Shown: in pieces, positions 2,027 to 22,541 of the stretch
How positions within the stretch are numbered: position 1 is the stretch's first letter
Layout of the letters: the number at the start of each line of letters is the position of its first letter
From: a virus
Virus record (IMG/VR): IMGVR_UViG_3300020505_000006
Coordinates: 1-26,072 of that record
DNA length: 26,072 bases
Strand: one strand, 5' to 3'
The notes under the pieces: model-generated
Database searches by the model: none
What the model saw: only the letters and a program-made list of their open reading frames with translations
Told to the model about the DNA's origin: nothing
Position numbers and translations under genes: made by a program

Positions 2027-5000
2027 ATGGCAGATACATCTCTAGGAAGAGCCAGTCTAAGTGTTACAGCAGATCTTTCAGGCTTCACATCTTCCTTAGA
2101 CACAGCATCCACAAAAGTTCAATCGTTTGGTAATAGCAGCATTGCAGCAGCTATGGATGCGAATAAGGTTACCACCGCAACGGAAAAGGTTACATTGTCT
2201 TTGGATCAACTCCAACAGGCTGCAGCATCTAGTTCCATCAATGCCACCATGTTTAAGCAGACATCTGCAGCAGCTAAGCTTGCAGTGGATCAGATGGTGC
2301 TATTAGATGGCGCAACCCTGTTACTGATGAAGGATGAAAACGAATTACAATTCCAGACTGCTAAACTTCAGACAGGCTACAAAGAGCTTGAAAACAATCT
2401 GATGAAGACGGATGCAGCATTCAAGAATAATACCTTGCTAATTGAGTTGAACACCCAGAAGCAAAAGCTGTTGGCCCTAGAAAACAAAAATGTGATTGCA
2501 TCCATGATGGCTGTGGATGATCAGGCTATAGGCTATGCAGCTAGCACCAAAACATTGAATGCAGAATTAGACATCAATGCTAGAAAGCTGGATCTGCAAG
2601 CTAAGCAGATGAACCTAGACAGTGGGGCAACCAAAGCCCTTCATGATGAACTGGTGAAATTAGAAGAACAGGAAAAAGCCCTGGCATTAGCTGAAGATAA
2701 AGTGAAGGGTATTAATCAACCAGTACCGATCATCGAACCACCCGCAGTAGTAGAACCACCCAAGATCGACACCAACACCCCTGAGTTTGTCCAGGAACAA
2801 ATTAACCTGAAGTCTAAGACCGATCTAGCATCCAAAGCTTTGGAACTGCAAGCAAGGCAAATGAATGTGGATTCAGGGGCTACTAAAAAGCTTCATGATG
2901 AGATGGTCAGGTTAGAGCAGCAGGAACAGAAGCTGATTGCTGCAGAGAATAAGGCCAGGGGAATTCCCCCACCACTACCGATCAAGCCACCACCAATTCC
3001 AGAGAATAAGAACACGGCTGCCTATGTCACCAATGCAAAGAAGATGTCTGCAGAAACAGACATACTTAATAAGAAACTGGATATGCAATCTCGGCAGATG
3101 ATGATAGCTGATGGCAGTGCTGCCAAGTTAGCCAAGGAATTATCAGCATTGGAAAAGGCTGAAAAGAAGTTGGCAGATGCTGAAATAAAATTAGGAATTA
3201 GAAAACCACCAGAAGAGAAAAAATCTAAAGAATCTAAAGGTGGCATGAAAATCACCGACATGCTCGGCATCGGATTTTTCACATCCGCATTCAGCAAGAT
3301 CTTTGATGGTGCATTAAATCTGGTAACTAAAATCACATCCTCTGTAATTGATCTGGGTGCCAAGGTTATTGAGTCTGGAAGTAAGTTTCAGGAACTAGAT
3401 AACAGGCTTAAGGCACTGACCGGATTTAAAGGGATCGCTAAAGGTTTGCAGGACATCATGAAGACTGGCCCTAGTGCCAGCTTCAATGCACTAGGTGAAG
3501 CAGCTACCCGATTAAGTCAGATGAAATTCAGACCCGATGTAGTTACTGGATTAATCAAAGACTTTAATAGACTTGGTGTAGCTTTAGGAAATCCCGAAAA
3601 GATCGTAGCACTGATCACAGATAAACTCGCAGACATGGCTAGTGAAGGTGTAGCAACCATGTCAGCCCTGGGCAAACTGGAAGAAGAGGGCATCCCGATC
3701 TTTCAATCTATGGCAAGCAGGATGGGAATCAGTGTTGATGAGCTTAAGCGCAGAGTAGCAGCAGGCCTGATATCTGTTACAGATGCAGCAGTGGGTTTGC
3801 AAGATGCAGCCAATATGCCAAACATGACCGCAGCAGCACAGGAATCTGCTAACAGTTTTTCAGGAGTTTGGAGCAGGGTTACCAATAATATTGAAGTGCT
3901 GATGCAGAAACTGGGAACTAGTCTTCTAGAGGGTTTTGGTTTAGTCAACCTTGGTGATACTGTAACCAACTTTTTTGATTCAGTGTTTAAAAAGGCTGAG
4001 GATCTAGAACCCCTATTACAAAAGATTGGTGCATTTGTTTCCACTACCACTGGGATGGTGATGGATAATTTAGCTGGTGTTATTGATGAGTGGGTAATAT
4101 TCACTGAAAAAATGACGATTGATGAAATGTTGCAGTCAGTTAAAAACGCAGCATCACAAATGCTAGAAGATCTTAAGCCGATGATTGATGCGCTTTCAAC
4201 GATCATTGGATTCACAGTGGATTTCATAAAGGTTGGTGGAACTGTTTTAAAGAAGGGCAACACCTGGGCACAGGCTATTCAGGACAACATACTTAATCCA
4301 ATATCTGATGCAGGGGCAGCAACTGTAAATTGGGGATTAGGTTTAACAGATGCAGCCAATGGTATAACCACCATAGGTAACAACACCATTGCAGCAACTG
4401 ATGCAGCAAACAACCTAGCTAATGCTTTTGATCTTGCAGCGCAGAACGCACAGAATTTAGCAGATACAGATATGAGTGGTGCTGGTGGTGGCTTTGGTCC
4501 TGATGATATTAATGAAATGATGCAACCTGCATCCAATGGGGGTGGAACTTGGCTAACAGCATTAGAAGAAGAGATGCAGCTAGCTGAGATGGAATTGGCA
4601 GAATTTGATAAGCAGTGGCAAAAGCTTAGTGATGAAGTCCAGAAGCCCATGCGGATAGAAGAACCAGGTTGGAAAAAGTTCTTTGCCGATAACATCACAC
4701 CACTACAGCAGTACGAAAATGAAGTAGCAAAACTTAAAGGCATGCTCAATGAAGGCCCTGAGGGTGTTAGGGCTTTTGCTCTTGGCAGTGCTAATGCCAT
4801 TGCCAAACTTAAACAAGCTACTGGCCTAGGCGGTCCACAGCAGTTTGCATCCGCAGTGCAGGCTGGATCGGCTGCAGAATTCCAAGTCAAAGTTGATGAG
4901 ATGGGCAAAGGCAAAAATGTCCAAGAAGAAATTCGCCAACTCATGGAAGCTGCTGCAGAGGTAGAAGCCCAACAGTTAGAAGCTGCCAGAGAAATTGCAG

Positions 5001-5068
5001 AAGCTATTAAGAATCTACCCGCAGCAATGCCAAGACCTCAGCAAATTGCAGTGGCCCTTAACCCTTAG
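2027..5068 (+). CDS. Tape measure protein
   Basis: The longest gene of the window, 1013 residues, directly after the chaperones, as expected for the tail-length ruler. Residues about 180-395 hold three diverged copies of a roughly 82-residue helical repeat with Pro-rich spacers. From about 430 to 620 comes a tape-measure N-terminal-type domain (TIGR02675-like): 'FQELDNRLKALTGF', 'ALGEAATRLSQM', 'EEGIPIFQSMASRMG', 'LKRRVAAGLIS'. The rest is Ala-rich, helical, with hydrophobic stretches near 655-720. The start is ATG with AAGGA upstream. At the rule of about 1.5 angstrom per residue, the tail would be around 150 nm. The C-terminal quarter is rich in Gln/Ala/Glu and probably coiled. Confidence 0.9.
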   Translation: MADTSLGRASLSVTADLSGFTSSLDTASTKVQSFGNSSIAAAMDANKVTTATEKVTLSLDQLQQAAASSSINATMFKQTSAAAKLAVDQMVLLDGATLLLMKDENELQFQTAKLQTGYKELENNLMKTDAAFKNNTLLIELNTQKQKLLALENKNVIASMMAVDDQAIGYAASTKTLNAELDINARKLDLQAKQMNLDSGATKALHDELVKLEEQEKALALAEDKVKGINQPVPIIEPPAVVEPPKIDTNTPEFVQEQINLKSKTDLASKALELQARQMNVDSGATKKLHDEMVRLEQQEQKLIAAENKARGIPPPLPIKPPPIPENKNTAAYVTNAKKMSAETDILNKKLDMQSRQMMIADGSAAKLAKELSALEKAEKKLADAEIKLGIRKPPEEKKSKESKGGMKITDMLGIGFFTSAFSKIFDGALNLVTKITSSVIDLGAKVIESGSKFQELDNRLKALTGFKGIAKGLQDIMKTGPSASFNALGEAATRLSQMKFRPDVVTGLIKDFNRLGVALGNPEKIVALITDKLADMASEGVATMSALGKLEEEGIPIFQSMASRMGISVDELKRRVAAGLISVTDAAVGLQDAANMPNMTAAAQESANSFSGVWSRVTNNIEVLMQKLGTSLLEGFGLVNLGDTVTNFFDSVFKKAEDLEPLLQKIGAFVSTTTGMVMDNLAGVIDEWVIFTEKMTIDEMLQSVKNAASQMLEDLKPMIDALSTIIGFTVDFIKVGGTVLKKGNTWAQAIQDNILNPISDAGAATVNWGLGLTDAANGITTIGNNTIAATDAANNLANAFDLAAQNAQNLADTDMSGAGGGFGPDDINEMMQPASNGGGTWLTALEEEMQLAEMELAEFDKQWQKLSDEVQKPMRIEEPGWKKFFADNITPLQQYENEVAKLKGMLNEGPEGVRAFALGSANAIAKLKQATGLGGPQQFASAVQAGSAAEFQVKVDEMGKGKNVQEEIRQLMEAAAEVEAQQLEAAREIAEAIKNLPAAMPRPQQIAVALNP
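2570..3206 (+). repeat. Three internal repeats in the tape measure gene
   Basis: Three protein-level repeats, starting near residues 180, 262 and 343. They share a core like 'L..QARQMN.DSGATK.LHDE', then 'L..QE..L..AE.K..GI' and a Pro-rich spacer (PIIEPP, PPLPIKPPPIP, RKPPEE). The period is about 82 residues. The third copy is the most diverged. Internal duplication of helical units is a simple way for a tape measure to change length. Confidence 0.7.
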
Positions 5069-5076
5069 GAATCATC

Positions 5077-6060
5077 ATGGCTATTGATCTATTTGAAGAG
5101 CTATGGCAGGAAAGAAAAGGAACTCTGGATAAGAGTTACCAGAACACTTTTTCGCGGTCTTTCATCGTTCACACCGACTCCCTAGAGCAGACTGATATTA
5201 ATATCTATGATGCCATTTATGGGCATATTAACTGCCCTCAGATTGGCGATCTTTTCCCTGGGGATGATGATTCATACGCTCAGTCTGTCAACATCAGTCC
5301 TGAGCAGGATGATCCAAAGACTTGGAAAGTCACGATAGAATATTCATCCAATCCAGATGCATCTTCCAGCAACTCAGGTGGTGCTGGTGGTGGCAGCACT
5401 CCACCACCCCAAGTGGAAACCCAGCAGGCAGGGCAGAAACCCGCAGACAGGGAAGCCAACCCCACCTTAAGACCACCCGACTTTAAGGTAAACTTTGTTT
5501 CATTCCCTTATATCGTTCCGAACATTAACAACTCTGCAGGCGATCCATTTGTACCACCGATCACCATAGAAAAGTTCAGACCTATTTTCAGTATTGGCTG
5601 CAATGTTAAATCTATTAACAGCTACACCCTAGCCACTTACATTGGCAAAGTGAATTCTACCAGTGTGACATTTACCACAGGCACTGGGTGTGTTCTGAGC
5701 ATCCCAGCAAAGACTGGGAAGATTAAGAACATCAACACGGAATTACTTCTTGAGGGGAAGCTTCAATACTGGCGATTGACTTATGAGGTAGAGATTAACA
5801 CCAGCTTAAGCCCCACGGATGGAACCACAGTGATAGGGTGGGATATGCACCTTTTAGATATGGGCTATCGGATTAGGAAAGATGATGGTGAGAGGGCACC
5901 GATCTTTGAGGGTGGGGTAAAAATCACGCAACCAGTGAGATTAAATGGAGCAGGGAAGAAAACTGCTGCGGGTGCTGCTAATAGCTATGTAGTTTTTGCC
6001 AGTGCGGATGTCTACGGAACCATCGATTATTCCACTTTACCAGGACTAGGATTCTTCTAA
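5077..6060 (+). CDS. Putative minor tail protein (unknown family)
   Basis: A 327-residue protein directly after the tape measure, where distal tail and tail-tip proteins usually lie. I do not recognise the family. The first 90 residues look folded. Residues about 94-125 are a Ser/Gly/Pro/Gln-rich flexible linker (SSNSGGAGGG, STPPPQ), and the rest is beta-rich with 'FRPIFSIGCNVKSINSY' and 'LEGKLQYWRLTYEVEI'. The two-domain build with a linker could suit a baseplate hub or distal tail protein, but that is position-based inference. The stop and the next start overlap as TAATG. Confidence 0.55.
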   Translation: MAIDLFEELWQERKGTLDKSYQNTFSRSFIVHTDSLEQTDINIYDAIYGHINCPQIGDLFPGDDDSYAQSVNISPEQDDPKTWKVTIEYSSNPDASSSNSGGAGGGSTPPPQVETQQAGQKPADREANPTLRPPDFKVNFVSFPYIVPNINNSAGDPFVPPITIEKFRPIFSIGCNVKSINSYTLATYIGKVNSTSVTFTTGTGCVLSIPAKTGKIKNINTELLLEGKLQYWRLTYEVEINTSLSPTDGTTVIGWDMHLLDMGYRIRKDDGERAPIFEGGVKITQPVRLNGAGKKTAAGAANSYVVFASADVYGTIDYSTLPGLGFF

Positions 6061-7220
6061 TGCCAGATCCAGTAGCATTTGAATTCGAGACAGCAAAGCA
6101 ACTCCTAAGACTTCTGAAGAAATCCAAGGATGGCACCTTCAATTCAGAGGTTGATGATGAAATCCCATTAGATCATGCACCTGCATTTATTTGGAGTTAT
6201 GTTCCAGCCACAGTTACCTGCACCTATGACGAAACAGTTAAGGCTTGGATTATTGGTGGGGCTGTAACTTGCTATCCAATCAACTCAGGAGTGGATTCTG
6301 CAGGTCTAATGCAATGGGGAAAGAATAATACTGATGGTGTTGTCACTGGTGGGATTACCTGCACCACTTTCACACCTAAGCTAGCAAGTGAATCAGCACC
6401 GAGCATAGGCAAGGGATTCTATCTAGGAACAATCTTTGGGTACAACTCAAGCGAACAGCCAAGGGTGCTGATAGGGTTACCACCTGCCCCAGCGGTGGTT
6501 ACTGGCAGCGGTTCCACTTTTGAGGTAGTCACTGGGGTTGTGTGTCATACCGATGGCAGCGGTATAGGAGTGACCACTGCAAGCTTAACTACCTCTGATT
6601 ATGATGGCGCAGTGTTTAAGAATTTTTTAGGGCTGGTGGATGTTGTGCCTAAAAGCTTTGTGGGCAATGCTTCAAGAATTGTTATGGTCAATGAAGCAGC
6701 TAATGCTTTAGAGTTTGGCCCTAACTTCTCAGGGGCACCAACAGCAGCAGACTTCCTAGGGTTAACCGACACACCGAACACCTATTCAGGTGCTAGTTAT
6801 AAATCAGTTATCTGTAATTTAGGAACCAGTGGAAATGCTAATGCTTTACAATTTACATCACCCAATGTAACCACCACAAAATCTTTGTCAGGTGGTGGAA
6901 ATCCCAATCATTCGAGTGTGTTTACCTCACTGGAACTATTGAATGATGTTGCCAGTCCAGGTAATTATTATTCCTACAGTACAAACTCTAGTGGTGTGAA
7001 GGGCTGGAACCTTCAAGCAGCAACACCAGCAGGCTTGACGGTTGGTGGCAATGTTGTGGTAAGCACCCGAAAAGCTGCGGTTACCGATGTTGCAGCACAC
7101 ACGATTTCTAGCGCAGACTTGGCCACCGCAGTCTCTACAACCCAAACAGCGATTGATGATTTGAAAACGCAAGTTAACCTTCTTCTAGCTCGCATAAGAT
7201 CCCATGGGCTAATCTCATGA
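6060..7220 (+). CDS. Putative tail fibre/tip protein with FLGL-type repeats
   Basis: A 386-residue protein translated in close coupling with its neighbours (1-base overlap before, 4-base ATGA overlap after). Two copies of a motif recur in the middle: 'FLGLVDVVPKSFVGNASRIV' with 'ALEFGP', then 'FLGLTDTPNTYSGASYKSV' with 'ALQFTS'. They resemble the 'FL.LtDTP.sY.G.ag..v.vN....gLeF' repeat seen in many phage fibre and surface-display proteins. The C-terminus (DLKTQVNLLLARIRSHGL) is a predicted helix that could trimerise. The receptor-binding or tip role is inferred. Confidence 0.55.
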   Translation: MPDPVAFEFETAKQLLRLLKKSKDGTFNSEVDDEIPLDHAPAFIWSYVPATVTCTYDETVKAWIIGGAVTCYPINSGVDSAGLMQWGKNNTDGVVTGGITCTTFTPKLASESAPSIGKGFYLGTIFGYNSSEQPRVLIGLPPAPAVVTGSGSTFEVVTGVVCHTDGSGIGVTTASLTTSDYDGAVFKNFLGLVDVVPKSFVGNASRIVMVNEAANALEFGPNFSGAPTAADFLGLTDTPNTYSGASYKSVICNLGTSGNANALQFTSPNVTTTKSLSGGGNPNHSSVFTSLELLNDVASPGNYYSYSTNSSGVKGWNLQAATPAGLTVGGNVVVSTRKAAVTDVAAHTISSADLATAVSTTQTAIDDLKTQVNLLLARIRSHGLIS

Positions 7221-9139
7221 TCTTAAATGAAAATGGCCTAACCTTTAATTTGAATGCAAGCTACTACATTTACAACTCTGCAACTGGGTTATGGGGTGGC
7301 CCAGCAGATGCTTATAATTTAGAAATGATCAGAGGCCGATCTGTTGCTGGACGATTCGTGAAAAGTAGTTCTATATCAAATCTGCCAGGAGGGTCTGACG
7401 CTAGTTCCTTGTATTATCTTTTTCAGAAAACCACTTACGGCCCTACTGCATATCATGTTGGGTTTGCTTCCACTTATGAAAACGCAGAAAACAAGATTCC
7501 TATTATCTTCACTACTGCTGGCGATCTGTTTTCTTTTCGTCAGGCAGGGCATTCATACCGATTAAAACCATTATATTTGGAATGCTGTGAGGATGAGATA
7601 TTTGATACGCAGTTACCACCACCCTACAACACAGATCCAAACTCACTTTTTGAAATGCCCGGGCCTGAAAAAATAAGGAAGAAGATAAGTTTTAGTGTTA
7701 GTGGTGTAGGTGTCACTGGGTATGTTGACAGCGGATTTTTAAACATGGGAGATATAAACGAATTTGCAACTATTATTAATGGCACCTATGACATTTATGT
7801 AGGAGATAACACCTACAGATTTGATGGGGTTGTCACTAGCTACGGAGACACATATCCAAAAACAAAAGTTGATGCTGGCTATTTTGGAGGCCCGTGGACC
7901 TTTATTTTGTACAACAATAGCAAACACAAAGTTACTGGGTTTTATAGTTCTATTATTAATGTATCTTTTCAAATAAAATTGCTTCTCAATGTCAGCACTT
8001 TACAAGTCACCGCATTTTACGAGCTAGGTTTAGATGGCACCGCAGATGCCGGTTATAATGTAATGAATGCGTCTTATAGTGGCTCAATAGTTTTTACCAA
8101 TTTTGCCAGTATAAGTGCAGGGGATGTTTTTGACACTATCCCTACTTTAAACCTTGTATCCTCTGGTGGTTATTTCGGCCCTTTCCCAGCAACTATAACC
8201 CCTGTTTTTACTGGTGATTATGTAGATGAACTGTTGCCAGCAACAATCACGCTAGAAAGAAGTTATGAACAAGGTTTAAAAACCAAACTAGAAAGGCCAG
8301 CAGGGGTCGCCTACCCAACAAGAGGATGGACAACCAACGACTACACGCCAGATCTTCCTGACACTATCGTGCTTTCCAAAATAAGTGACAGAACCTACGA
8401 GTCCGATCCCTTCACGCTGGCAGTAAATGTAATTAATAAGGTTCGGTTAAAGCTTATGGTTTTAAAATCTGAGTCTTTGGGTAATGGATGTTTTGGTTAT
8501 GTTTTTTTTGATCGTTATTATAGCCAGATAGGTGGCACTACCACTACTAATTACATGACCACTTATCGACCCATTAGGTTTTACAAAACCCCACCAAGCA
8601 CATATGCCTATGATGGTTCATGGATTTACAATAATCCAGCAGGGTTTACTTCAGGCATTATGACTTTTGTTCTTTTTCGAGAGTCAGGAATCTTAGCCCA
8701 AAATGCTACCGCACCTACAGCCCCTGAAGTCTCTGAATGTTTTGCTACTGTGAATTATAAGCTAACTGTGGGTGGCCCTCCTTATATTCCTTTGCGTACA
8801 GAAATTGCTACATTTGTTAGCCGTACTGGTACGGGTGATCTGATTGGCTACACAAGCGGGTCTGATGGCAATGGTGGGCTAATCAAAGGTGACGGCACTA
8901 CGCAAACACTCACCTTAACCACCACAGTGGGTGGTACCCTTAACTATTACATTTATGTTTCAGACTTTTATGGAACCCCTACGGCTTCCATTAGTCTTGG
9001 TGGTACCGTCCTGCACAGCCTTACAGGGAACAGCAACTACACAGGAACAAGTCCAGTTTCGGCAGGTCAAACCATCGTCTTTACCTTTACCGCCACAGCA
9101 CCTATGGGCAATTTTCAGTTTTCTATCTCCATCCCCTAA
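7217..9139 (+). CDS. Large beta-rich putative tail structural protein
   Basis: A 640-residue protein with no family that I recognise. It is rich in Tyr, Thr, Ser, Gly and Pro with alternating hydrophobic strands, and lacks signal peptide or membrane segments, as expected of extended fibre or tip proteins. The last 90 residues (from 'GLIKGDGTTQTLTLTTTVGG' to 'FQFSISIP') read as a compact beta-sandwich with a 'GQTIVFTFTATAP' strand, possibly an immunoglobulin-like or carbohydrate-binding tip domain. Start at 7217 rests on the ATGA overlap with the previous stop. No clear ribosome binding site is visible, so coupling is likely. Confidence 0.55.
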   Translation: MILNENGLTFNLNASYYIYNSATGLWGGPADAYNLEMIRGRSVAGRFVKSSSISNLPGGSDASSLYYLFQKTTYGPTAYHVGFASTYENAENKIPIIFTTAGDLFSFRQAGHSYRLKPLYLECCEDEIFDTQLPPPYNTDPNSLFEMPGPEKIRKKISFSVSGVGVTGYVDSGFLNMGDINEFATIINGTYDIYVGDNTYRFDGVVTSYGDTYPKTKVDAGYFGGPWTFILYNNSKHKVTGFYSSIINVSFQIKLLLNVSTLQVTAFYELGLDGTADAGYNVMNASYSGSIVFTNFASISAGDVFDTIPTLNLVSSGGYFGPFPATITPVFTGDYVDELLPATITLERSYEQGLKTKLERPAGVAYPTRGWTTNDYTPDLPDTIVLSKISDRTYESDPFTLAVNVINKVRLKLMVLKSESLGNGCFGYVFFDRYYSQIGGTTTTNYMTTYRPIRFYKTPPSTYAYDGSWIYNNPAGFTSGIMTFVLFRESGILAQNATAPTAPEVSECFATVNYKLTVGGPPYIPLRTEIATFVSRTGTGDLIGYTSGSDGNGGLIKGDGTTQTLTLTTTVGGTLNYYIYVSDFYGTPTASISLGGTVLHSLTGNSNYTGTSPVSAGQTIVFTFTATAPMGNFQFSISIP

Positions 9140-18296: not shown

Positions 18297-18329
18297 AGCC
18301 AGTAGGAAATATCCCTGCTGGCTTTTTTT
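18297..18329 (+). terminator. Strong rho-independent terminator
   Basis: AGCCAGTAGG (18297-18306) pairs with CCTGCTGGCT (18314-18323) over 10 pairs including one T-G, around a 7-base loop AAATATC. Seven T follow (18323-18329). It closes the integrase/winged-helix unit and separates it from the early operon. Confidence 0.9.
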
Positions 18330-18994: not shown

Positions 18995-19163
18995 TGATGA
19001 AGTTATTCTAGTGCGCCATGAGGCTGCACCCACCGAAGTTTTGCAGATTTCCATCAGGCGAAATGACACTGATGGCAGTTTTAAAGTTGCGTTAACTGGC
19101 CCGATAAGCTTTGACATTATCCGAGGAGAACTAAAAAATGACCCAAGTAAAACCAAGAAGTGA
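18969..19163 (+). CDS. Small hypothetical early protein
   Basis: A 64-residue protein if started at ATG 18969. The alternative ATG 18963 sits only 2 bases after AGGAGG (18955-18960), too close, while 18969 is 8 bases after. The sequence (MALILKRFDDEVILVRH...) is a small alpha-beta or beta protein with 'LQISIRRNDTDGSFKVALTG'. It overlaps the RecT/Bet-like gene by 26 bases. Its function is unknown. Small carbon-storage-regulator-like proteins have a similar strand pattern, but I see no decisive motif. Confidence 0.45.
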   Translation: MALILKRFDDEVILVRHEAAPTEVLQISIRRNDTDGSFKVALTGPISFDIIRGELKNDPSKTKK

Positions 19164-19845: not shown

Positions 19846-20351
19846 GCTTACTAGATCTAGCTTCAGGAGCTGCTGTGTTGAGGTTCTGGATGGAGAAGGA
19901 CACCATTACCGAAGAGGGAGAACTTAACCCAGTCATTGATGAACTGTTTGAAGAGCTGGAAGGGTCCATCGAAAACAAGGTGGAAGCTTATTGCAGAATC
20001 ATTAGGGAACTGGAACTGACTGCAGAATCCAGAACAGCAGAGGCTGACAGGATCAAAGCCCTGGCTGTTACAGATGCCAACGCAGCAAAGAACATGAAGG
20101 GAAGGCTGGTTTATTTCTTTGGATTACAAAACATCAAGAAGATGGAAACCCAAACCTTCAGGCTTTCGATCTGCGCTAATGGTGGTCATGCTCCTATTGA
20201 AGTGACAATCCCACCCGATCAACTCCCAGCAGAATTCCAAAAGCTGGAAATCAAACCAAACATGGAAACAATCAGGGAGGCTTTGAAAATGGGCACCTTC
20301 CTAATTGGTGTTACTGAACTTGCCCGTGGCACACATTTGAGGATTAAGTAA
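19842..20351 (+). CDS. Siphovirus Gp157-like protein
   Basis: A 169-residue protein with the Gp157 layout. A long N-terminal helix holds 'IENKVEAYCRIIRELELTAE', then 'SRTAEADRIKALAVTDANAA' and 'KGRLVYFFGLQNIKKMETQ', and a short beta end holds 'FRLSICANGG' and 'IPPDQLPAEFQKLEIKPN'. Gp157 family members sit next to recombination and single-strand-binding genes in many siphoviruses. Their exact role is unclear. It overlaps both neighbours (ATGA before, TAATG after). Confidence 0.75.
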   Translation: MSLLDLASGAAVLRFWMEKDTITEEGELNPVIDELFEELEGSIENKVEAYCRIIRELELTAESRTAEADRIKALAVTDANAAKNMKGRLVYFFGLQNIKKMETQTFRLSICANGGHAPIEVTIPPDQLPAEFQKLEIKPNMETIREALKMGTFLIGVTELARGTHLRIK

Positions 20352-20818
20352 TGACTGTATCTGGTGAACCCGATTATGAAAAGCAAGTGGATCTGAATTC
20401 TAATTTTAGAAGCACCAAAGCTTCTGACCTAGAGGATGGCACCTACCTTGGTAGGGTTGAAAACGCATGGATCAAAGAGGTCAGTTCCCCTGTCACACCC
20501 TCAGGGAAACAAAAGGTCTTTGAGATTAACCTGGTGGTGGATGGCAGGTCTGTGCAGATCAGCTACTGGCTAGCCTCTGATGCCAACATGAAACGCTGCT
20601 TAATCAATTTGCAGAAAATTGGTTTTGATGTTCCGCAGTGGGGGCCGATGTTTGACCGACCCTACCTGGTTGAAATGGATAAGGCAGGGCTAGCGATGCG
20701 GGGCAAGACCCTGAGTTTTAGAAGAGATACCAATGGGCAATACAAGAATGTCACCCTTATGGCCTTGAGTGCGGACAGCATCCCCAGTCAGCCATCGGAA
20801 GATGACCTGCCCTTTTAG
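20351..20818 (+). CDS. SSB-like/DUF669-type DNA-binding protein
   Basis: A 155-residue beta-rich protein that ends in an acidic tip, 'PSEDDLPF', the C-terminal signature by which single-stranded DNA-binding proteins contact partners. The body ('LEDGTYLGRVENAWIKEVSS', 'KVFEINLVVDGRSVQISYWL', 'MKRCLINLQKIGFDV') resembles DUF669-type phage proteins, which have an OB-like arrangement. Together with the Gp157 and RecT/Bet-like neighbours it forms a recombination module. Confidence 0.6.
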   Translation: MTVSGEPDYEKQVDLNSNFRSTKASDLEDGTYLGRVENAWIKEVSSPVTPSGKQKVFEINLVVDGRSVQISYWLASDANMKRCLINLQKIGFDVPQWGPMFDRPYLVEMDKAGLAMRGKTLSFRRDTNGQYKNVTLMALSADSIPSQPSEDDLPF

Positions 20819-20869
20819 ATACCCATTAGGGGTGGCGGGGTAACTCATGCTCCGAGACCTTTTGATGGG

Positions 20870-20895
20870 GCTGCTGTCACCCACCCAACAGCAGC
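20870..20895 (+). promoter_or_regulatory. 8-bp perfect hairpin after the SSB-like gene
   Basis: GCTGCTGT (20870-20877) pairs with ACAGCAGC (20888-20895) around a 10-base loop CACCCACCCA. The loop can also pair with GGGTGG at 20830-20835, giving a possible pseudoknot. No T run follows, so it is not a standard terminator. Confidence 0.5.
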
Positions 20896-20912
20896 AATAA
20901 TATTCATGCGCT

Positions 20913-20991
20913 TCAGCCTGGTTCGAGCCATATGAGATATACGGCCAAGTAACACACCTGACTTGTTGTCAGAACTGACCAGGCTGATTTT
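20913..20991 (+). ncRNA. Predicted three-way-junction RNA structure
   Basis: A closing stem of 10 perfect pairs joins TCAGCCTGGT (20913-20922) to ACCAGGCTGA (20978-20987). Inside lie two hairpins. One pairs GCC-A-TATG (20927-20934) with TATA-C-GGC (20938-20945), with one mismatch and a 3-base loop. The other is CTGAC-TTGTT-GTCAG (20958-20972). TTTT follows the closing stem, then GGAGG for the next gene. The 193-base gap 20819-21011 holds no gene. It could be an attenuator, an antitermination RNA or a free RNA. Confidence 0.45.
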
Positions 20992-21011
20992 ATATCACGG
21001 AGGATTTTAAA

Positions 21012-21605
21012 GTGGATCTGATCGAACTAGGGAACACCAGTTTTCCACCGGACTTTCAACAAGAACCCAGCATTGAAACTGTAGCAAAACTTGCCAACAT
21101 CATGCTGGAAAATGAATGCTCCAAGCACATCCTTAAAGTGCAGAACATGGTGGTTACTCTGCGCAATGGTCATGTAAGCTTTGATCTGCTCGCACAGGTG
21201 CAGGGTGGGGTGAATGATGGGCTTAACATTCTCTACCCCATGACGATCACCGACATGGATGGGCTGAAACTCTGGGCTACCCAGATGACCTGCCTAGGAG
21301 CAAAGCCCTGGGAACTTGGCTATGGTCAACCCCTGTCCTTCGTTGAGGGTTGGGATGTTCTGAAGGCTGAGCTTAAGGATCAACTGATAGTTAGCCTAGC
21401 CACTCATTCTGTCTGTATTTATTTTCGTGCCAGTTACATCCTTTACGATGCTACCTGCTCTGAGTGCGTTAAAACCAGCCCACACTTCTGGTCGATCACA
21501 GACCTTGAGATGTGGCTGAATCAAAAGGAATGGCTGGAATTCCCTGCTGAAGTTGGGGTGAAATATTTCTGCAAGAAATGTACCCGCAAGATTTTAAAAT
21601 TCTAA
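21012..21605 (+). CDS. Hypothetical early protein with C-terminal zinc motif
   Basis: A 197-residue protein starting at GTG, with GGAGG (20999-21003) 8 bases before. Residues about 20-130 form an alpha-beta region (VTLRNGHVSFDLLAQVQGG, LKLWATQMTCLGAKPWELGY). The end has two Cys pairs, C149-x-x-C152 and C187-x-x-C190, which probably bind zinc (ATCSEC, KYFCKKCTRK). I do not recognise the family. It may bind DNA or regulate. It is the first gene after the structured gap and could be controlled by it. Confidence 0.45.
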   Translation: MDLIELGNTSFPPDFQQEPSIETVAKLANIMLENECSKHILKVQNMVVTLRNGHVSFDLLAQVQGGVNDGLNILYPMTITDMDGLKLWATQMTCLGAKPWELGYGQPLSFVEGWDVLKAELKDQLIVSLATHSVCIYFRASYILYDATCSECVKTSPHFWSITDLEMWLNQKEWLEFPAEVGVKYFCKKCTRKILKF

Positions 21606-21853: not shown

Positions 21854-22131
21854 AAGACCAGCAAACTTTCTTACCCTTTATGAAGGGTGATGGCTCAGCG
21901 ATCAAACAAAACATCCAGCACCAGATGGAAGATGAACCAGACATTTTAAAAGAAGGACAGATGAAGGTGATTAAGAGAGCCTTAGAAACCTATCTGGACA
22001 TCAGGTATTCTTCTAGGCGATTGCTTCTTCAAGAAGTATCAGCACACATAGATTCCTATGTTCAGAGATGGATTGAAGCAAAGTATCGAACCAATCGTCA
22101 GATATTAAAAACTAAAAGGCCTAAACAATGA
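21850..22131 (+). CDS. Hypothetical early protein
   Basis: A 93-residue, mostly helical and charged protein that overlaps its neighbours by 4 bases (ATGA) on both sides. No domain recognised. It has 'MKVIKRALETYLDIRYSSRR' and a basic tail (KTKRPKQ). The acidic first half followed by a basic second half may suit a nucleic-acid or protein-binding role. Confidence 0.45.
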   Translation: MKDQQTFLPFMKGDGSAIKQNIQHQMEDEPDILKEGQMKVIKRALETYLDIRYSSRRLLLQEVSAHIDSYVQRWIEAKYRTNRQILKTKRPKQ

Positions 22132-22424
22132 CTAGCCAACGCATCCCACATTTACCACCAGACGAACATGAAAACATCAGCGCATTCTTTGAGAGGTGCT
22201 CTGACCTAATCAAGGAACGAGCATCTGAGTATGAACCCCCAGCAATTAGCCTGGCTAAAATCGCATTGCACTGGCAGACCTACACCGACTGCAAAACCAC
22301 TCCCTACGATGTTGCCATAATGATGGCACTGTTAAAAATCGCGCGACTTTCTAAAGGGCATCATCAGGACAGTCTAGAAGATGCAGCAGCTTACTTAGCA
22401 ATCGCAAACAGTCTAAAGGAGTAA
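22128..22424 (+). CDS. DUF6378-like protein
   Basis: A 98-residue helical protein with the pattern of DUF6378 phage proteins. It has 'LIKERASEYEPPAISLAKIA' then 'LHWQTYT', followed by 'YDVAIMMALLKIARLSKG' and 'HHQDSLEDAAAYLAIA', where Asp/Glu/His residues cluster as in all-alpha nucleotide-handling folds (MazG-like resemblance, not proven). It starts in an ATGA overlap. Confidence 0.65.
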   Translation: MTSQRIPHLPPDEHENISAFFERCSDLIKERASEYEPPAISLAKIALHWQTYTDCKTTPYDVAIMMALLKIARLSKGHHQDSLEDAAAYLAIANSLKE

Positions 22425-22425
22425 T

Positions 22426-22524
22426 CCACTGCACTGGGCCACCTCATCCTACCTGGGAATGAGGCAAGGCTGGTTAGACTTTGCAGTGGGTTTTTATCAC
22501 AAGGTGGGGGAATTACCCCACCCA
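22426..22524 (+). promoter_or_regulatory. Branched hairpin array before the replication initiator
   Basis: The gap 22425-22541 has no gene but three nested or adjacent stems. CCACTGCA (22426-22433) pairs perfectly with TGCAGTGG (22482-22489). CCTCAT (22442-22447) pairs with ATGAGG (22459-22464) inside it. GGTGGGG (22503-22509) pairs with CCCCACC (22516-22522) just after. GTTTTTA follows the outer stem, so it may terminate or attenuate transcription. The third hairpin lies about 20 bases before the ATG at 22542 and could limit its translation. Confidence 0.5.
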
Positions 22525-22541
22525 TAAATAAAGAGAGAAAC

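Follow-up and report, generated by a model that had tools for sequence, protein, structure and literature searches.

A 193-nucleotide gap at positions 20819-21011 of an IMG/VR viral record from a freshwater bacteriophage (26,072 bases, referred to in full as the window) almost certainly carries a conserved structured RNA with a three-way junction, which we designate RNA1; it lies on the + strand within an operon, immediately behind a gene for a protein resembling single-stranded-DNA-binding (SSB) proteins. RNA1 is a selected, folded, non-coding, single-copy RNA of the + strand that keeps its operon position whichever cargo gene lies behind it, and we infer that it acts in cis at the level of the operon. 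A preliminary description of this DNA had proposed such a structure, and its building blocks are all present: the gap itself, a perfect 8-base-pair hairpin (20870-20877/20888-20895), a 10-base-pair closing stem around two hairpins (20913-20922/20978-20987), TTTT and then GGAGG (20999-21003) after that stem, and a hairpin-loop CCACCC (20881-20886) which is the exact complement of an upstream GGGTGG (20830-20835). Helices P1 (CCCATTA/TGATGGG) and P2 (CGGGG/CTCCG) had been overlooked, and the structural proposal now stands on firmer ground than when it was made.

Relatives were sought in viral contigs by means of both flanking proteins, DNA patterns of the element and profiles of the SSB-like protein, and RNA1 was found in 27 distinct haplotypes of 162-172 nucleotides. 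Reading the haplotypes side by side resolved two domains. In domain 1, P1 encloses an invariant GGGGTGG and the hairpin P2; hairpin P3 comes next, and its loop CACCCACCCA is able to pair back with GGGTGG in a putative GGGTGG/CCACCC pseudoknot. Domain 2 is the three-way junction, in which the closing stem P4 surrounds P5 and P6, both the joiners (ATTCATG and GTAACACA) and the loops (TGAGA and TTGTT) being strongly conserved. The parts of the element in the window are as follows.

20822..20988, + strand: RNA1, the whole conserved element, about 167 nucleotides; also in 43 other IMG/VR contigs
20822..20828, + strand: P1 5' strand CCCATTA, 7 base pairs
20863..20869, + strand: P1 3' strand TGATGGG
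20830..20835, + strand: putative pseudoknot 5' strand GGGTGG, invariant
20881..20886, + strand: putative pseudoknot 3' strand CCACCC, in the P3 loop, invariant
20836..20840, + strand: P2 5' strand CGGGG
20850..20854, + strand: P2 3' strand CTCCG
20870..20877, + strand: P3 5' strand GCTGCTGT, 8-base-pair hairpin
20888..20895, + strand: P3 3' strand ACAGCAGC
20913..20922, + strand: P4 5' strand TCAGCCTGGT, 10-base-pair closing stem of the three-way junction
20978..20987, + strand: P4 3' strand ACCAGGCTGA
20927..20945, + strand: P5 hairpin GCC/GGC, loop region ATATGAGATAT
20958..20972, + strand: P6 hairpin CTGAC/GTCAG, loop TTGTT

Compensatory base changes beyond chance, the mark of a structured non-coding RNA, were found in the helices of both domains. 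When helices were read by hand in 14 haplotypes, two-sided changes occurred in 20 of the 44 pairs of P1-P6. Pair 6 of P1 exists as T-G, C-G and T-A; four of the five pairs of P2 covary (alleles CAGGG, CGGGA, CAGAG, CCACA, CTGCA and CAAGG), with pair 2 alone taking the forms G-C, A-U, C-G and U-A; covarying pairs number five of eight in P3, five of ten in P4 (98.7% of cells paired) and four of five in P6, and P5 occurs as GCC/GGC, GGC/GCC and TCC/GGA. In alignments that were model-fitted to the structure and include a remote type (L083), the covariation score was 0.297 for domain 1 and 0.284 for domain 2, against shuffled means of 0.134 and 0.104, and was reached in neither case by any of 500 shuffles. 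The counts of changed pairs and of cells are of sequences and not of independent events, and are inflated by related rows, whereas the number of alleles per helix and the slid-register controls (score at most 0.077) do not depend on row relatedness. Unfitted MAFFT alignments agreed, with 95.7% and 96.7% of cells pairing and the score again matched by 0 of 500 shuffles. The preliminary description had named covariation across homologous gaps as the check on its proposal and a lack of compensatory changes in the stems as the outcome that would count against it; that outcome did not occur. Thermodynamic folding pointed the same way: the gap was more stable than all 200 shuffled sequences (z = -3.71), and each domain folded alone gave z = -3.4. 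The hand-read helices contained 26 G.U cells against a single A.C, indicating that the selected molecule is RNA of the + strand. Compensatory change maintains P2-P6, so the gap, which is coding-strand sequence, functions as folded RNA of that strand.

The pseudoknot stands apart from these helices. Neither of its strands varies among the 21 distinct domain-1 rows, the most distant haplotypes included, which places the pairing beyond the reach of covariation; it is therefore termed putative, suggested by perfect complementarity and invariance. It competes with an extension of P1, in which GGGG pairs with CCTT and which is favoured by nested folding, a procedure that cannot represent pseudoknots. 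A regulated attenuator or riboswitch-like device could be built on this competition: GGGG(TGG) would pair with the CCTT before the P1 3' strand in one state and with the P3 loop in the other, and downstream expression would depend on which pairing forms, perhaps as directed by ribosomes completing the SSB-like gene (ssb). Every haplotype folded allows both pairings, with minimum-energy nested folds favouring the P1 extension, and a local CCACCC-ATTAG-GGGTGG hairpin is possible in many relatives as well; such a switch is nonetheless improbable, given that no conserved terminator or Shine-Dalgarno-sequestering platform follows RNA1 and that the downstream genes share no common function. The tail after P4 is mostly ATTTAAAACACA (ATTTAAAA/ATTAAAAA across haplotypes), and no + strand terminator was detected there by terminator scan; nor does RNA1 sequester the Shine-Dalgarno sequence, which lies outside the structure across haplotypes. 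The suggestion of an intrinsic attenuator is therefore not supported: no U-run is conserved behind the closing stem.

RNA1 keeps a constant upstream neighbour and a changing downstream one. It always starts 2-6 nucleotides past the stop codon of the SSB-like gene, and a search with SSB profiles found it directly after that stop in 42 of the 44 contigs that encode an SSB homologue. In the relatives, the first gene behind RNA1 belongs to one of at least ten unrelated families, which include AlpA-like genes and some that appear ParB-like or GIY-YIG-like by eye; farther downstream, the DUF6378 and replication genes reappear. A role as leader for the gene at 21012, raised in the preliminary description, is not supported, since unrelated first genes follow the same element; moreover, the two exceptional contigs, L095 and L096, have a likely homologue of the 21012 gene (judged by eye from its translated start) without RNA1. 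Their SSB homologue is followed instead by a gap of about 70 nucleotides (L095:3442-3515) holding a plain GGGTGGTG...CACCACCC hairpin with ATATTTT after it. The pairing core of this hairpin, GGGTGG/CCACCC, has the same letters as the invariant pseudoknot strands of RNA1, which may be chance or a remnant.

The fixed position invites the explanation that RNA1 is a 3'-end or autoregulatory element of ssb, which would stabilise or process the upstream mRNA, or bind SSB, and thereby raise ssb output above that of the downstream genes. SSB-type proteins can autoregulate through RNA pseudoknots, as T4 gp32 does, and a ribosome at the ssb stop codon covers the P1 5' strand; these points join the near-constant association described above. 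We nevertheless consider this explanation unlikely: SSB proteins only about 35-45% identical carry near-identical elements, ssb genes that are 90% identical can carry elements that are only 69% identical (L017 versus L073), and L095 and L096 have the protein without the RNA. The converse was seen between L018 and L030, in which the elements are identical while ssb is 60% and the downstream stretch 39% identical at the nucleotide level. Judged from these comparisons, RNA1 alleles move independently of both flanks; identical elements between diverged flanks are expected of an element that serves the operon and not a neighbour, and a position just before an exchangeable gene cassette suggests a general, not a gene-specific, role.

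An island of identity between exchanged flanks might be a recombination junction or a folded single-stranded-DNA site (an origin, primosome or exchange site) kept as DNA near the SSB and recombination genes, and the adjoining operon genes do encode DNA-metabolism proteins. This is very unlikely, however: recombination alone makes no compensatory changes, the excess of G.U over A.C cells points to selection on RNA of one strand, and the covariance models score about 74-117 bits on the sense strand versus about 16-23 on the other.

RNA1 might instead act in trans, host RNases cutting it from the operon transcript to yield a phage non-coding RNA that serves as a decoy, in anti-defence, or in binding a host factor or mRNA; the contacts would then be the invariant loop ACCCACCCA, UGAGA, UUGUU and the GUAACACA joiner. 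The large, elaborate fold with conserved loops within covarying stems, its indifference to both neighbours and its lack of coding would suit such a molecule, and we regard it as possible though doubtful, for RNA1 has neither an adjoining promoter-like site above chance nor a terminator of its own, and it is always found directly after the ssb stop and does not wander in the genome. Several further identities were considered and set aside. Coding in the gap was rejected, as no frame is open throughout the haplotypes and their differences in length are not multiples of three. The resemblance of GGTTCGAGCC to a T-arm does not indicate a tRNA-like origin, ARAGORN being negative and GGTTCGAGCC not conserved. 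A signal for stop-codon read-through or frameshifting was discarded on inspection, with TAG and TAA stops alternating and many relatives meeting an immediate in-frame stop.

We favour the explanation that RNA1 is a cis-acting anti-polarity or antitermination RNA, put-like in its action, that guards an operon with exchangeable cargo, and give it a probability of roughly one in three. Three features of the locus lead to this preference: RNA1 borders a slot for foreign genes on its upstream side, essential genes lie past the slot, and a terminator-shaped structure (GGGTTTTT) occurs about 1.4 kilobases farther on, at 22425-22541, which, being covarying and in the same operon, would offer a target for an antiterminator. 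RNA polymerase transcribing the early operon would emit RNA1, which would adopt the pseudoknotted P1-P3 fold and the P4-P6 junction; the two-domain fold may contact the polymerase that is making it, or some factor of host or phage origin; the polymerase would then resist termination and polarity, and transcription would carry on through any inserted foreign cargo as far as the replication, resolvase, HNH and terminase genes. Weighing against this explanation are the distance of about 1.7 kilobases from RNA1 to the nearest good promoter-like site (19111), the existence of L095 and L096 with an SSB homologue and no RNA1, and the dissimilarity to put, which measures about 70 nucleotides with two stem-loops and is present in two copies near early promoters, as opposed to a single RNA1 of about 167 nucleotides.

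A second gap in the same operon, at 22425-22541 (117 nucleotides), is likewise structured (z -3.8); the earlier statement that the genes of this operon otherwise overlap is thus only roughly right, this gap being the departure from it. Its outer stem is CCACTGCA/TGCAGTGG (CCATTGCA/TGCAATGG in relatives), enclosing inner hairpins CTCAT/GTGAG or CTGAT/GTCAG, with an GGGTTTTTAT tail and then a hairpin GGTGGGGGAATTACCCCACC. Two-sided changes affect four of its pairs, and Rfam has no match to it. It may be a terminator, or else a further RNA acting together with RNA1.

The EAR antitermination RNA of Bacilli occurs mid-operon, has a pseudoknot and is thought to suppress termination. RNA1 differs in architecture from EAR and from the epsC motif described in PMC2864571, and matches neither through Rfam. 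The put RNA of HK022 (putL and putR) is about 70 nucleotides long, with two stem-loops, and is found in two copies per phage near the early promoters (PMC9378689). As a cis-encoded structured RNA of a phage early operon that needs no partner protein and is indifferent to the genes that follow, put resembles what we propose for RNA1, whose function is inferred only; put suppresses termination through the zinc-binding domain of the RNA polymerase beta' subunit. RNA1, in contrast, has six helices in a putative pseudoknotted domain and a three-way junction, and lies mid-operon in one copy per contig, whereas the two put copies fall within about 300 nucleotides of early promoters. Because size, fold, copy number and position differ, we do not assign RNA1 to put; of the earlier suggestion of a put-like antitermination RNA, the action survives as the leading functional guess.

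Other precedents share its location. STAXI motifs contain pseudoknots and often lie near genes for single-stranded-DNA-binding proteins, and RNA is favoured over DNA as their form (Weinberg 2010; PMC2864571). RNA1 likewise adjoins an SSB-like gene and has a putative pseudoknot, but the STAXI pseudoknot unit occurs in at least two tandem repeats, whereas RNA1 is single and two-domain, with a three-way junction and no Rfam match. The L17 downstream element and other structured RNAs of 3' untranslated regions have conserved structure right after a specific gene (Weinberg 2010; PMC2864571), as has RNA1, which differs in lying inside an operon before exchangeable genes and in matching no Rfam family.

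No Rfam 15 family was matched at or above its gathering threshold: nothing emerged with the window, with positions 20700-21100 at E<=5, or with the elements of L082, L062, L013 and L006. Phage records likewise yielded no genuine match. Nor was one found in GTDB genomes, which were searched with one exact pattern that would not fit all of the L062, L063 and L083 types and so possibly missed diverged copies; its only two matches, L045 and L046, are unrelated sequences that happen to fit it. L048, L049, L086, L090 and L091 were dismissed as chance pattern matches. Covariance models found one copy of RNA1 per contig, although contigs are often fragments and a second copy may lie off-contig; a pair comparable to putL and putR was not seen, a 15-bit match at L030:3434 being taken as chance. 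No description of RNA1 was found among open-licence papers. That RNA1 is an orphan RNA family of uncultured phages is well supported.

The operon reads on the + strand, its 5' part encoding a 235-residue protein, a Gp157/Gam-like protein and the SSB-like protein, followed by the gap and then by a 197-residue protein, an AlpA-like regulator, a DUF6378 protein, a replication-type protein, RusA, HNH and the terminase small subunit. The features flanking RNA1 are as follows.

20351..20818, + strand: SSB-like upstream gene, 155 residues, OB-fold, C-terminus EDDLPF
20999..21003, + strand: GGAGG, Shine-Dalgarno sequence for the next gene, outside the RNA structure, at a distance that varies in relatives
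21012..21605, + strand: 197-residue gene, function not annotated, one of many alternative cargo genes behind the element

Neither protein, in the window's version, has a match in PHROG or Pfam. An AlphaFold model of the SSB-like protein (pLDDT, the per-residue confidence score, 73) gave as its best Foldseek match PrgE of pCF10 (E 9.7e-6), along with other OB-fold binders of single-stranded DNA; its LPF terminus is common to all relatives, and the tip DDLPF is acidic. By consensus match only, the best promoter-like site of the region lies just 5' of the early operon (TTGACA-17-AAAAAT, 19111-19139), and a strong terminator-like hairpin with T6 lies upstream of it (18297-18323). The protein of 22128-22424 is named phosphofructokinase in PHROG (phrog_474), which looks like a misannotation, and DUF6378 in Pfam. 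Elsewhere in the window, four large genes among the tail-type genes at 2027-9139 (1013, 327, 386 and 640 residues) have no PHROG match. A search of phage records for a host assignment gave no match for the integrase and remote matches only for TerS and Gp157.

The stretch from 20989 up to 22128, where the DUF6378 gene begins, holds a hypervariable gene slot, and most of the alternative first-gene families found there in relatives are unannotated; the slot genes behind RNA1 are candidates for early accessory or anti-defence genes. Tentatively, RNA1 may represent a new class of phage RNA, combining a pseudoknotted switch domain with a three-way junction, that serves as a lone universal adaptor in cis between a fixed core gene and the hypervariable cargo slot and insulates the operon from polarity, allowing whatever gene is acquired to be inserted behind it. 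Covariation is strong enough to establish most of its secondary structure ahead of any experiment, and RNA1 marks the edge of the slot, flagging cargo genes worth screening for anti-defence activity. If RNA1 suppresses polarity, it would provide a second RNA-only design of antitermination to compare with put, and would explain how cargo can be swapped mid-operon without silencing the essential genes behind it.
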